A stretch of DNA of 21,440 nt, from the IMG/VR virus record IMGVR_UViG_3300031708_000030, positions 1 to 21,440 of that record; one strand, given 5' to 3'. The stretch comes from a virus. The translations under genes were made by a program, and so were the position numbers. Of the stretch, positions 1,269 to 7,002 are shown piece after piece. The notes below the pieces were generated by a model. The model searched no databases and was not told the DNA's origin. It was given only the letters and a program-made list of their open reading frames with translations. Within the stretch, counting starts at the first letter, position 1; every line of letters starts with the position of its first letter.

Positions 1269-1634
1269 GTGCGCCGCCTGCTCCTGGCCCTTGCCGTGGT
1301 GGCCGCGGTGGCCGTGGTGGCCGCGGCGGCCGGGTACGGCGCCGGGTGGGTGGCCGGTGGCCGCGGCGCAGCGCGCCAGGAAGCCGCCTACGCGGCGCAG
1401 GCGGCCAGCGCACACAACGAGGCCGAGCTGGCCGCCGCAGCCGCCGCAGCTGCCGCACAGGCCGCGCGCAGCGGCACAGCGGGGATCTGCTGGACGGCCA
1501 GCGGCGGCCGGGTCACGGGCCTAGCTCCTCCGGTGGCGCAGCCAGGCGGGTTCACCTGCCCGGCCGGGCCGTGGCGGTGGACGCCAGTGGCTCCGCAGCC
1601 TGCGCCGTCCGGTGCCGGGCTCCTCGGTGGCTAG
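1269..1634 (+). CDS. Small Ala-rich protein with N-terminal membrane anchor or signal peptide
   Basis: The 121-residue product begins MRRLLLALAVVAAVAVVAAAAG, two Arg followed by about 20 hydrophobic residues, a membrane anchor or signal peptide. An Ala-rich, helix-prone section (about residues 34-68) follows. Then comes a Pro/Trp-containing C-terminus with two Cys (GICW and FTCPAG) that could pair outside the membrane. The GTG start has no ribosome binding site but stands seven bases after a TANNNT box, so the message may be leaderless. The gene ends one base from the end of the convergent holin-like gene. The topology (one anchor plus extracytoplasmic helix) is compatible with a spanin-like or superinfection-related protein, but no homology is visible; treat it as unknown. 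Confidence 0.6.
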   Translation: MRRLLLALAVVAAVAVVAAAAGYGAGWVAGGRGAARQEAAYAAQAASAHNEAELAAAAAAAAAQAARSGTAGICWTASGGRVTGLAPPVAQPGGFTCPAGPWRWTPVAPQPAPSGAGLLGG

Positions 1635-1635
1635 G

Positions 1636-2460
1636 TCAGCCGTAGCTTTTCGGCTGGCGCTCGGGGTCGCCGGGTAGGCCCTGGCCCGGCTCGCCGGGTG
1701 CGCCTGGCGTGCGGACCCACGCCCACACCAGCGCGGAGCCGTACAGCACGGCCACCCACGTGCCGGGCAGGCCCTTGGTCGGGTGGCGCGGCTCGTAGCC
1801 TTCCTCCACCTGCGGCGGCTCGGCCTCCAGCGCGTAGGCCGTGAACTGGTCTTGGCCGTCCGTGATGGTGATGCGCCGGGTCATGTTCAGGTCGAGCAGC
1901 TCGGCCTCCGGGTGGCCGCCCAGCTCGTGGTCCTCGATGATCGGGTACACCGGCCGCGGCGGCCGGGCCTCGCCTGGCGGCAGCCCTTGGTCCGGGTAGC
2001 CGCCTTCATCGACGCCCCAGTCAGGATCGGTCGGCCGCGGCGGCCGGGGTAGCCCTTGGCCGGGGCGGCCGGGGTAGCCGGGCGGCAGCCCTTGGTCGGG
2101 GTATCCGGGGTCGCCTGGCGGTAGGCCCTGGTCTGGTGCGCCGGGGAAGCCTGGCCGCGCGGGTGGCACGTATGCCTCGACGGCGATGTAGACGAGTTGC
2201 TTGGGCATGGCCGGTGGTCCTTTCTGTGGGTTGCTTCTGGTCACGACCCTAGCGCCAGCGGCCTGGCCGGGGCCGGTGCGGAGACCCATGTACGCGGCCA
2301 CGGCGCCGACCGCGGCGCCGAGCACGGTGGCCACGGACAGGATTTCCTCGGTGCTGACCAACCTGCCGCGGTTGAGGCTCGCGCCGATGGAGCCGATCAG
2401 CAGCACGGCCACCACGCCGCTGGCGAGCACCACGGCAGCGATGCCGCGCCAGTCGGTCAC
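1636..2460 (-). CDS. Two-TM holin-like module fused to a PDQGLP-repeat proline-rich protein
   Basis: One open frame of 274 codons starts with GTG at 2460, three bases after the fibre gene, with AGGTAG just upstream. Residues 1-84 look like a small two-TM holin: hydrophobic segments at about 6-29 and 39-62 with a charged turn between. From Met85 the protein changes character. It becomes a Gly/Pro-rich region with repeated PDQGLPPG-type motifs (about 100-155), then a strand-rich end with a hydrophobic WVAVLYGSALVWAWV segment. Met85 (ATG 2206-2208) has its own good ribosome binding site at 2218-2225, so a separate 190-aa product is likely. No stop separates the two parts. Holin function is inferred from topology and from being near the endolysin. 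The function of PDQGLP-repeat phage proteins is unknown to me. Confidence 0.7.
   Translation of the reverse strand: MTDWRGIAAVVLASGVVAVLLIGSIGASLNRGRLVSTEEILSVATVLGAAVGAVAAYMGLRTGPGQAAGARVVTRSNPQKGPPAMPKQLVYIAVEAYVPPARPGFPGAPDQGLPPGDPGYPDQGLPPGYPGRPGQGLPRPPRPTDPDWGVDEGGYPDQGLPPGEARPPRPVYPIIEDHELGGHPEAELLDLNMTRRITITDGQDQFTAYALEAEPPQVEEGYEPRHPTKGLPGTWVAVLYGSALVWAWVRTPGAPGEPGQGLPGDPERQPKSYG
2218..2225 (-). promoter_or_regulatory. Internal ribosome binding site inside the holin-like/PDQGLP gene
   Basis: On the minus strand AGAAAGGA stands nine bases before the in-frame ATG at 2206-2208. It would let ribosomes begin at Met85 and make the proline-rich part alone. Confidence 0.5.
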
Positions 2461-2463
2461 CAG

Positions 2464-4161
2464 CTACCTGGCGATGATCCCGGAGGCGCGCGGCTTCGCG
2501 CCGCCACCGCCCGGAACGACCGACGTGGCCGCCTTGACGACGACCCCGCCCGACCCGCCAGGACCGCCGCCGAACGGGTCAGACCGCACCTTGAGCACGA
2601 GGTTGGCCGCGCTGTCCCCGACGACCGCCCGCAGCGGCCCGATGCTGGCCGTGCCGTAGGGCAGTGCCGCGTGCAGCGTGATCTGAGTGGCACTCGGGCC
2701 GGTGATCGTCATATTGCCGAGACTTTCGATCCACGCGGTGACCAGCCGGGGAGCCCCGCCCAGGTCGGTCAGCTCGAACGTCAGGTGAGCGCTGCCCTGC
2801 GCCTCGCTGTTGGCCGGGATCACGACGGTATTGATGGTCGTATCGGTCATGTCGGGCACGGGCACGTCGGTGGTCATGGTCACGAGCTGGAAGGCTTCCA
2901 GCTTGTCCACGCGGGCCTGGAGCGCATCGAGCCGGTTCACGATCGGGATGATGTCGGCCCACTGCACTTCGCCGGGTACGCCTTGCGGGCCTTGCGGGCC
3001 TACCGGCCCGGCCGGTCCCCGGATATTGCCAGCGAAGGCGAACACGGGGCCGGGCTGGATGTCGTAGATGTTGCCGTGGCCGAACGCCTCGGGGTCGGCC
3101 AGCAGGATCAGCACCCGGTCGCCTACCCGGCCGACGCCGATGTCAGGCGGGAACACCTGCGAGATGATCCAGGCCGAGCCGTCCGCGCCGGTCGCGCCTT
3201 GCGGGCCTTGCGGGCCGGTGTCGCCCTGGTCGCCCTTGGGCCCGGTGATCGTGGCGGCGAGCCACGGCTGCGCGCTCGTCGCCGTGCCGATGTAGACGAG
3301 CACCTGGCCGTACAGCCCGGCATCGGCCGGGTTCTGGTCATACCACGCCTGGCCGACCTGCGTCTGGTAGTCGGCCGCTGGGCGGCCCGGCCCATCCCAG
3401 TTCGCCGGTATCAGGCCGGTGCCGAGCGCGGCCAGCTCGCTGGCGGTGCGGGTGTAGAAGGCGTCGATGATGTACGACGGGGCGCCGGGGTCGCCTTGGT
3501 CGCCTTGGTCGCCTTGCGGCCCAGCGGGGCCAAGTGCCCCGGTCGGCCCTTCCGGTCCCCGCGCGCCGGTCGGGCCGGTGTCGCCTTGGATGCCGGTGGG
3601 GCCGGTGTCGCCGCGGTCGCCCTTCGGCCCCTGCACACCAGTGGCGCCGACCGGGCCGGTGGCGCCGTCCGCGCCGCGTGCGCCTTGCGGGCCGGGGTCG
3701 CCTGGTGTGCCTTGCGGGCCGGGGCTGCCGGTGTTCCCGGTCAGGCCGCGGTCGCCAGGCGGGCCAACCGGCCCGCGGTCGCCTACCGGGCCGGGGTCGC
3801 CAGGCGGGCCGCGCAGCTGGCCGGTGTCGATCCAGCCGCCAGGTATGGCGGCCGGGCCGAGGAACAGCCACAGGTACCCGTCCGGCCGGTACTCCACCGA
3901 CTGGCCGACGCCGACCTGGATATCGCCCTCGGGCACGCGCACGTCGTCCCACCCGGCCGGTATCAGGCCGTCCTCGGGCAGCTCGGCCGGTGTGCGCTGG
4001 CTGAACGCGAACACCACCGTCGTGGTGCCTCCGGGGTCGCCGCGCTCGCCGCGCTGGCCGCGCAGGCCAGGCGGCCCCATCACGGCCGGGCCGACATCGG
4101 CGCCGACGACGCCGCCAGGCAGGCGCACCGCTACGGTGGCGCCATTCTCGAGTTCGGTCAT
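2464..4161 (-). CDS. Collagen-like tail fibre protein (565 aa)
   Basis: The start ATG at 4161 lies in an ATGA overlap with the upstream gene; the frame upstream of it is a shadow. Residues 29-45, 118-228, 307-329 and 381-398 are Gly-X-Y triplets (GPPGDPGPVGDRGPVG and similar), the longest about 37 triplets, which should form a triple helix and make the protein a trimer. Two related globular segments sit between them (about 49-117 and 231-306). After the last collagen run comes a heptad-like helix (VNRLDALQARVDKLEAFQ, about 409-426), a probable trimeric coiled coil. A beta-rich C-terminal domain (about 430-530) and a Gly-rich tail end the protein. Position after the tail-tip genes supports a host-contacting fibre; receptor binding is inferred. 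Confidence 0.88.
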   Translation of the reverse strand: MTELENGATVAVRLPGGVVGADVGPAVMGPPGLRGQRGERGDPGGTTTVVFAFSQRTPAELPEDGLIPAGWDDVRVPEGDIQVGVGQSVEYRPDGYLWLFLGPAAIPGGWIDTGQLRGPPGDPGPVGDRGPVGPPGDRGLTGNTGSPGPQGTPGDPGPQGARGADGATGPVGATGVQGPKGDRGDTGPTGIQGDTGPTGARGPEGPTGALGPAGPQGDQGDQGDPGAPSYIIDAFYTRTASELAALGTGLIPANWDGPGRPAADYQTQVGQAWYDQNPADAGLYGQVLVYIGTATSAQPWLAATITGPKGDQGDTGPQGPQGATGADGSAWIISQVFPPDIGVGRVGDRVLILLADPEAFGHGNIYDIQPGPVFAFAGNIRGPAGPVGPQGPQGVPGEVQWADIIPIVNRLDALQARVDKLEAFQLVTMTTDVPVPDMTDTTINTVVIPANSEAQGSAHLTFELTDLGGAPRLVTAWIESLGNMTITGPSATQITLHAALPYGTASIGPLRAVVGDSAANLVLKVRSDPFGGGPGGSGGVVVKAATSVVPGGGGAKPRASGIIAR

Positions 4162-4568
4162 GCTGGCACCAGGTCTTCCCCGCGCGGTGCGGTGTCCGGG
4201 TCGTCGCGCAGCTGGTCGGTGACGCGCGCCTTGACCATCATCTGCCCGGCCAGCACCACGACGCCCTCGCCTGCTGCTGGCTGCCGCACGGCCACGTCGA
4301 AGGCCAGTGGCCGGCCGGTGGGGAGCCGCGCCGTGTCGTCGCCGCGCAGCAGCAGCGTGGCCCCGGTGTCGTCGGCGGTCCACTCGAAATCAAGGCGCAG
4401 GCTGCCGGTGGTGACGGCGGCCGCCCACAGCCACGTGGCCACGTCCACCGGCTGGTCGTCGGCGTCGAGCAGCACCACGCGGAAGCTGAACGGGTCGCCA
4501 GCCACCGCGCGCAGCGTGGCCTCCAGCGGCCAGGCATCGACCACCGCGGGCGGGGCTGGCGTGCTCAT
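4158..4568 (-). CDS. Small Ig-like/BppU-type tail-associated protein (136 aa)
   Basis: ATG at 4568 overlaps the endolysin stop as ATGA, and the gene ends in ATGA with the next fibre. The core (GDPFSFRVVLLDADDQPVD, then alternating strands, then RPLAFDVAVRQ) follows a pattern common in small phage tail proteins: a GDxFxxxVxxxDxxGxPVD strand pair followed by a W-containing strand and a closing strand near the end. BppU N-terminal-like and other Ig-like baseplate domains share this pattern. No signal peptide or membrane segment is present. A structural role near the fibre, perhaps as an adaptor, is inferred from the fold pattern and from sitting between endolysin and fibre. Confidence 0.6.
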   Translation of the reverse strand: MSTPAPPAVVDAWPLEATLRAVAGDPFSFRVVLLDADDQPVDVATWLWAAAVTTGSLRLDFEWTADDTGATLLLRGDDTARLPTGRPLAFDVAVRQPAAGEGVVVLAGQMMVKARVTDQLRDDPDTAPRGEDLVPA

Positions 4569-5368
4569 GAGACCGGCGCCGTCCACGTGGCGGCCCACGT
4601 CTTCGGGCCGACCAGGCCGTCCGCGCCGAGGCCCTTTTCAGCCTGGAATTGGCGGCACACCCGTTCGGAGCCGGGGCCGTACACCTGGTCCACGTCGATG
4701 GACCACCCGCGGTTCCGCATCTGCTGCTGCCAGGTGCGCACGTCGCCGTGGCGGCTGTTGTGCTGCTGGCCGAAGTAGTCCACGGACATCTTCGGGGCGG
4801 TGCCGGTGGCCGGTGGCGCGGCGCCGCCACCACCGCCCGCGGGCGGCTTGCCCCCGGTGGCCTTGGCGATGATGTAGTCCCACGGGAAGCCCTTGCCGGG
4901 GTCGGTGCGGTCCTTGGGCTGGATATCCACGTGGCCGCACAGGCCCCGGCCGCTGCCGGTGGCCTGGCTGGCCGACAGCTTGACGATCGGGATGCCGTAG
5001 GCCCTGGCCTCCTCGGCCACCCATGCGGCGGTGTTGTCCAGGAGCCAGCCCTGCTTCGACAGCCAGTAGTCGCGGGACCAGCCGTTGGCTGCACCGGCCG
5101 GGGTACACATCTCGATGCAGATCGACGCCGAGTTGTAGTTGCCTTGCGCCCACGCCGCGCGGTCCCGCTTGACGTACTCCGCGATGGTGCCCTGCCGGTG
5201 GTTGTCGGCGCCGACGTGGGAGCTGACCTTGGCGGCCGGATTGGCGAACCAGTTGGCCAGGCTCTCGATGGTGGTGCTGCCTTCGGTGGTGTGCAGCACG
5301 ATCAGCCGCACGGAGCCGCTGCGGGCTGAGTGGTGCGGCGACGGGCGCCACAGCCTGGTGAGCGCCAT
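4565..5368 (-). CDS. Endolysin: N-acetylmuramoyl-L-alanine amidase with peptidoglycan-binding domain
   Basis: This 267-residue enzyme would cut the bond between muramic acid and L-Ala in host peptidoglycan at lysis. Residues about 20-170 are an Amidase_2-type domain. The zinc ligands appear to be His26 (VLHTTEG), His146 (CGHVDIQP) and Asp156 (KDRTDPG), with Glu86 in the ICIEM strand. A Gly/Pro-rich linker (about 172-195) leads to a C-terminal PG_binding_1-like domain, about 205-262, with the usual DVRTWQQQM start and DGLVGPKTW end. There is no signal peptide, so it needs a holin or similar. ATG at 5368 is chosen because GGAGG precedes it and the domain starts right after; the longer upstream frame is a shadow. 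It lies between two fibre-type genes instead of next to the holin-like gene. Confidence 0.92.
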   Translation of the reverse strand: MALTRLWRPSPHHSARSGSVRLIVLHTTEGSTTIESLANWFANPAAKVSSHVGADNHRQGTIAEYVKRDRAAWAQGNYNSASICIEMCTPAGAANGWSRDYWLSKQGWLLDNTAAWVAEEARAYGIPIVKLSASQATGSGRGLCGHVDIQPKDRTDPGKGFPWDYIIAKATGGKPPAGGGGGAAPPATGTAPKMSVDYFGQQHNSRHGDVRTWQQQMRNRGWSIDVDQVYGPGSERVCRQFQAEKGLGADGLVGPKTWAATWTAPVS

Positions 5369-5370
5369 AG

Positions 5371-5538
5371 CTACGCCTCCCCTCCGTGTTCGGCCGGCCA
5401 GTCGGCCGGGTGCTCGCTCGGTACGAGCTCGGCCGGGTCGGCCGGGGTCATTTCCTCGCCTGGCACGGTGCCTTCGGGGTCGGGTTCCACGTCGTCCTCG
5501 TAGGCCAGCGGGTCGGGCTCGGGCGTGGTTTCGGTCAT
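5371..5538 (-). CDS. Small acidic protein (55 aa)
   Basis: ATG at 5538 follows AGGTGA at a six-base distance, a good ribosome binding site that overlaps the stop of the upstream fibre gene. The TAG is at 5371-5373, two bases before the endolysin start. The 55-residue product begins MTETTPEPDPLAYEDDVEPD and is rich in Glu, Asp and Pro with no hydrophobic segment, so it is probably disordered. It fills the gap between two coupled genes exactly, which supports it as real. No family is recognised. Short acidic proteins in this position could be a chaperone, an inhibitor or a spacer for translation coupling, but nothing in the sequence decides this. Confidence 0.65.
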   Translation of the reverse strand: MTETTPEPDPLAYEDDVEPDPEGTVPGEEMTPADPAELVPSEHPADWPAEHGGEA

Positions 5539-5544
5539 GGCTGT

Positions 5545-7002
5545 TCACCTGCCTTGGTTGAGGAGGGGGATGCTGGCGGGGTCCAGCAGCAGCGCACCGC
5601 CCGCCTGCTGCTCGCGGCGGGTGGCGTAGATCGTCGGGATGATCGTGGCGAGCGTGGTTACGCCCGTGCCGGTGGTGGACGTGATCAGCTCCACGCCGCC
5701 GTTGGCGCCCATGAACCACCGGATGAGCTGGGTCGCGGTGAAGCCGATGTTGCCCTGCGCGTTGATGATGCGGGCCTCCCCGTTCACCGGCCCGATCCAG
5801 CAGTCCGAGGCCATCGGCGGGAACACGAACGTGGTGGAGGCGCCCGTGGTGTGGTGGCACTGGAAGTCGAGCTGCACCGATTCCAGGAAGCCGAGGCGCC
5901 GGTAGCGGCACCTAGTGTTCGGGCCTAGCCCGGCCGGGGTCGTCGGGGTCGTCAGCGTGCGCCACGGCCCGATGTCCAGGTCCGCGATGCCGCCTGGTGC
6001 GCCGGGTAGGCCCTGCTCTCCGCGCTCGCCTTGCGGCCCGGCCGGGCCTTGCGCGCCGGGTGGGCCTTGCGGCCCGGCGATGACCCCGGTGCGCAGCCAC
6101 CCTCCTGGCAGGGCCGCGCTGGTGACGAACATCCACACGGCGCCGTCTGGTTCGTAGAGCAGCGACCAGCCCACTTGCATCTGTATGGCGGTGGCTGGCC
6201 GGCCTGCCCCGTCCCAGTCGGCATCCACCAGGCCGCTGGGCGGCAGCTGGTCGGGCGTGCGCAGCTGGCCGAAGGAGCCGACCAGTACGGTGGCGGCGCC
6301 GTCCGCGCCGGGTGGCCCCGCTATGCCTTGCGGGCCAGCTGGCCCGGTGGGGCCGGGGTCGCCGCGGTCGCCCTGCTCGCCAATGCCTGGCGGGCCGGTG
6401 AGGCCGGGCGGGCCTTGGCTGCCCTGCTCGCCTTGCTCGCCGCGCTCGCCTTGCGGGCCTAGCGGGCCTTGCGGTCCTGGCGGGCCTCCGGGGTCGCCGG
6501 GGTCGCCTGGCGCACCGGCCGGGCCTTGCGGTCCTGCCGGGCCTGGCGGGCCTGGCTGGCTGCCGCTGAAGTCCTGGCCGCGCGGCACCAGCACCATGTC
6601 CTCGGTGCTGGTGGCCCCGGCCGGTACCTCGACGGTGCCGAGCATCACGCCGCGCGGGCGCTGGCCGGGGTCGCTGATCGCCAGCACGGCCAGCCGGTAC
6701 TCCGCGGCCTCGGGGTCGATGATCACGGCCCACAGCTCGTCGGTGCGGTCCTCGTCGCCGCCAGCGGTGGCGCCTACCTCGGTGCCCACCGGGCTGGCGA
6801 GCACGGCCACGGTGCCGTCGCCGCAGTCGGCTATGGCCAGCCACCCGGCATCCACCAGGATCAGCAGGCCCGCGGTCGCGCTCATCACGCACGGCGTCAC
6901 GATGCCGGTCTGCGCGGCGGCCAGCGCTGTGATCACCTGCCGGTCGTCCCATGCGCTGTACTTGCCTGCCTGGCCCCAGCGCACCAGCTGCGGTGTGGTC
7001 AC
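5545..7002 (-). CDS. Collagen-like tail protein (485 aa)
   Basis: GTG at 7002 overlaps the upstream stop as GTGA; the longer open frame is a shadow. Residues about 8-145 form an N-terminal domain that is clearly related to the N-terminus of the upstream gene (WGQAGxYxxxDDRxVIT). Then follow Gly-X-Y triplets (148-236, with one break near [10 protein letters not shown]), a globular segment (about 239-308) like those in the 565-aa fibre, a second collagen run (309-337) and a C-terminal beta-rich domain (about 340-485). The likely role is a trimeric fibre or tip protein that attaches through its shared N-terminal domain and reaches out with its C-terminus. Which host surface it binds cannot be read from the sequence. 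Confidence 0.87.

Follow-up and report, generated by a model that had tools for sequence, protein, structure and literature searches.

The window, that is, the whole stretch of 21,440 bases analysed here, is an IMG/VR virus record with a GC content of 72%, in which PHROG or Pfam matches identified the late genes for terminase, portal, capsid, tape measure, a collagen-like fibre and endolysin, and it belongs to an unclassified tailed phage. On the minus strand, positions 2460 to 1636 form a single open frame of 274 codons with a GTG start, a TGA stop and no internal stops, and the plus strand read in the same frame has several stops. A first-pass annotation had described an open frame through two unlike parts without giving a strand, and this frame is indeed present. 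The locus comprises the following features:

1636..2208, minus strand: PDQGLP-repeat protein of 190 aa, normal start ATG 2208 (12-sequence alignment)
2218..2225, minus strand: ribosome binding site (RBS) of the PDQGLP gene, AGAAAGGA, conserved in relatives
2238..2251, minus strand: conserved leader element TAGGGTCGTGACCA, with TAnnGTCG invariant in seven leaders; a possible -10
2209..2277, minus strand: junction, with the end of the holin-like gene and then the former PDQGLP leader, read as residues 62-84 (leader alignment; GC3 of 0.59 and low coding score at residues 68/69-84)
2278..2460, minus strand: holin-like two-helix membrane protein, conserved core residues 1-61 (homologues with their own stop in 12 contigs; hydropathy; model)
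2464..4164, minus strand: collagen-like fibre, upstream of the holin-like gene (Pfam Collagen 2e-22, PHROG tail proteins)
4158..4568, minus strand: LtfC-like protein (weak Pfam LtfC match, E 0.1, below the cut-off; homologues and gene order)
4565..5407, minus strand: endolysin with amidase and peptidoglycan-binding domains (Pfam and PHROG)

The N-terminal module of the fibre recurs at window positions 3346-3537 and 6100-6357 (minus strand) with 44-45% identity, sites that fall within the fibre itself and within another collagen-like protein encoded upstream of the endolysin. On the other flank there is a convergent ORF (1269-1634, plus strand) whose 121 aa include a membrane segment at the N-terminus; it has weak matches to Rz-like spanin PHROGs (best E 0.005) and could be leaderless, since a TAGGCT lies a short way upstream of its GTG.

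The holin-like gene begins at GTG 2460, 4 bases past the stop of the fibre and about 2.1 kb after the endolysin. Its residues 1-84 contain two hydrophobic segments (19-residue Kyte-Doolittle maxima of 2.67 at residue 7 and 2.0 at residue 40), and an AlphaFold2 model based on nine homologues places helices at 4-29 and 37-61 with moderate confidence (mean pLDDT 70), so that the two-membrane-segment, holin-like character proposed for this part holds in both the hydropathy profile and the model. Homologues were found in about a dozen viral contigs, directly before the endolysin in L012 and L048 and shortly after it in L047. A small protein with two helices, encoded against or near an endolysin like the two-TMD proteins of actinobacteriophage lysis cassettes, is probably a holin, although the membrane part matched no curated holin family above the cut-off, giving single-member matches far below it. 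The membrane gene ends with its own TAG or TGA in 12 contigs (L011, L012, L013, L015, L016, L017, L024, L030, L031, L047, L048 and L049), that is, in every homologue uncut by a contig end; the L002 contig finishes inside the gene. The homologue of L048 (3990-4402) carries an in-frame extension of about 60 residues, acidic and rich in proline, whose first residue is a Met (4224) with an AGGAGG motif ahead and whose end overlaps an endolysin start; this extension is a possible second case of an internal start in the holin-like family.

From Met85 onwards, the frame encodes a proline-rich protein with five QGLP motifs (three PDQGLP and two PGQGLP), one TKGLP and a conserved C-terminal part, in agreement with the four or more motifs previously noticed. 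The AlphaFold2 model of this part yields no confident fold, with a mean pLDDT of 38.6 and two low-confidence beta hairpins. The start at Met85 also stands up to scrutiny: the AGAAAGGA at 2225-2218 is located 9 nt ahead of the ATG (2208-2206), and when 12 PDQGLP proteins are aligned, the stand-alone genes start at the position of Met85 of the window frame. This usable internal start, with its RBS, is therefore the normal gene start of the relatives.

Viral contigs were searched with the whole frame, with each part separately and with alignments. Close homologues of the PDQGLP protein occur in 13 contigs, besides distant ones, and since each half of the frame has homologues, each of them is a real gene. 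Twelve of the 13 contigs have a stand-alone PDQGLP gene immediately behind the endolysin, with LtfC-like and collagen-like genes coming next where they are recognisable, and in the six of these 12 where the membrane gene is visible (L002, L015, L016, L024, L030 and L031) the two-helix gene lies behind the fibre, 1.9-2.1 kb past the PDQGLP gene; the independent number of contigs is somewhat smaller, because some are near-identical pairs (L015/L016 and L025/L026). The usual PDQGLP site is empty in the window, because there the LtfC-like gene overlaps the end of the endolysin gene (ATGA at 4568-4565), and the PDQGLP gene comes after the membrane gene. L033, which is closest to the window in the LtfC-like protein (90% identity), has the same overlap and the same empty site, in a contig that stops short of the membrane gene. 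The most similar PDQGLP gene (81%, in the 12-protein alignment) is that of L021, and it occupies a third location, before the HNH endonuclease and terminase small subunit genes. The comparison of these sites, which carries no direction of the moves, indicates that the PDQGLP gene has changed position. In L021 (3631-4521), an upstream frame with coding-like GC3 to about 3960 crosses the PDQGLP gene out of frame without a stop, and the gene may there, as in the window, have landed on the end of another one. The distant PDQGLP-repeat genes are found near terminase (L003, L010), portal (L005) or primase-like (L008) genes and not near lysis genes, surroundings that yield no function.

None of the relatives examined has the fusion; their two parts are separate and in the opposite order. 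The first-pass annotation had taken a stop between the parts in relatives as the sign against its reading, and the relatives go further, with two genes about 2 kb apart and a membrane gene that has its own stop. The proposed membrane link offers no clue to PDQGLP function. Among the relatives, no second genome with the arrangement of the window was found, so that neither a stop nor a conservation of the join is visible in a sister. No convincing match came from 50,697 phage records, whether queried with the whole frame, with either part or with the distant PDQGLP proteins, and a scan of prokaryote genomes revealed no relative.

The sequence between the parts points to where the join came from. 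When the leaders of seven PDQGLP genes are aligned, all have TAnnGTCG without variation at about 40-50 bases ahead of the ATG, together with an RBS of the GAAAGGA or GAGAGGA type, and the window carries both the element and the RBS within the supposed linker. The longer form of the element, TAnnGTCGnnACCA, occurs once in the window, against an expectation of 0.02. GC3 falls from 0.95 in residues 1-62 to 0.59 in residues 68-84 and stands at 0.87 in residues 85-274, and the coding score of residues 69-84 is within the lowest 0.8% of same-length stretches in nine genes of the window. This alignment and the codon usage identify the linker as a descendant of the noncoding PDQGLP leader. The element could be a promoter, with TAGGGT as its -10 hexamer, a role that stays conjectural because a sigma-70 scan found no promoter pair, and no terminator either. 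A conserved fusion with a linker under coding constraint is not what the data describe: the fusion is in no relative, and the codon usage of the linker looks non-coding.

How surprising an open join of this kind should be can be estimated. At the composition of the window, a random codon is a stop in about 1.5% of cases, a run of 22 codons is free of stops with a probability of about 0.71 and, with one chance in three that the frames match, an open in-frame join is expected with a probability of about 0.24, so that the uninterrupted join is unremarkable and no more than chance. In the stand-alone PDQGLP genes of the relatives (n = 11), the upstream frame is open for 12-108 codons, reaching at least 84 in three of the 11. 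An open frame of 891 codons on the plus strand (2197-4872), antisense to the fibre and other late genes, makes the same point: open frames arise cheaply here.

The reading we consider very probable is that two separate late phage genes, now neighbours, share a frame by chance without a stop between them. The comparisons with the relatives demonstrate, at the level of sequence, the separate genes, the different position, the leader homology and the identity of Met85 with the normal start. The PDQGLP gene, with its own leader (TAnnGTCG and RBS), would have been placed after the holin-like gene, whose own end would have been lost at the join, and by chance the frames agreed and no stop remained. 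The PDQGLP protein would be made mainly from Met85, as in the relatives, and ribosomes starting at GTG 2460 would run on, giving as a by-product a 274-residue fusion that may still have holin activity. As nothing in the given sequence stops translation between the parts, use of GTG 2460 should yield the fusion, and the chain may well be translated. There is no sign that selection favoured the fusion or that the membrane is where the PDQGLP protein works; these are ordinary genes in an unusual arrangement.

The first-pass annotation suggested that the frame could be one gene with a membrane product and a soluble product in a set ratio. In its full form, this reading has translation from GTG 2460 give a membrane-anchored holin-PDQGLP fusion and translation from Met85 a soluble form, with selection keeping the ratio. 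The frame open across both parts and the good RBS at Met85 agree with it, as do the in-frame Met behind an AGGAGG motif in the holin-like gene of L048 and the report of a possible fusion of holin and major capsid protein in a Gordonia phage (PMC9671378), by which such in-frame joins have a possible precedent. However, a gene of this design is hard to reconcile with relatives that have two genes in the opposite order, with a linker that has the codon usage of a noncoding leader and with a join that chance alone would leave open in about a quarter of cases, and we regard it as very unlikely. There is a similarly slim chance that, after the move, the phage gained a membrane-anchored PDQGLP form, or a holin with a large soluble tail, beside the soluble form, altering lysis timing or localising the protein to the membrane.

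An artefact would offer a different account, with a single-base error of sequence or assembly joining the frames and the true holin-like gene ending within the leader. Both other frames stop inside the leader (as ...RPLALGS and ...RPGRWR), so an error could hide a stop, and a stop of its own closes every uncut homologue of the membrane gene. In assemblies of short reads, if this record is one, indel errors are rare, so that one falling within about 60 bases is unlikely beforehand, whereas a chance open join is not, and we hold this account to be improbable too.

For the chance join of two genes, the lesson is one of caution: in phage genomes rich in GC, where open frames come easily, in-frame joins are a poor guide to function. 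The PDQGLP gene, with its own leader and at least three different locations, resembles a cassette that is expressed independently. Should the fusion prove important, it would give a first hold on what PDQGLP proteins do. Our literature search found no paper on this family; a search on holin fusions with dual starts found none either.

Among known systems, the membrane part is closest to the two-TMD holin-like proteins of actinobacteriophage lysis cassettes, such as the 88 aa LysF1a (PMC13056207) and those of Gordonia phages (PMC9671378). It shares with them its small size, the two membrane helices and, in L012, L047 and L048, the nearness to the endolysin; it differs in lacking a curated family match above the cut-off, in a frame that in the window continues into another gene, and in its position behind the tail fibre, not beside the endolysin, in the window and its closest relatives. 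The possible holin-major capsid fusion mentioned above is gp9 of Gordonia phage EpicDab, in whose genome no separate holin gene was found (PMC9671378); there too, membrane helices stand in frame with an unrelated phage protein, whereas the relatives of the window carry both parts as independent genes. The PDQGLP part has its counterparts in the repeat proteins of uncultured phages (L002-L010, L015, L021-L032), which share the repeats and, in the close group, also the C-terminal part and the start, but theirs stand alone, while that of the window follows a holin-like gene in frame.
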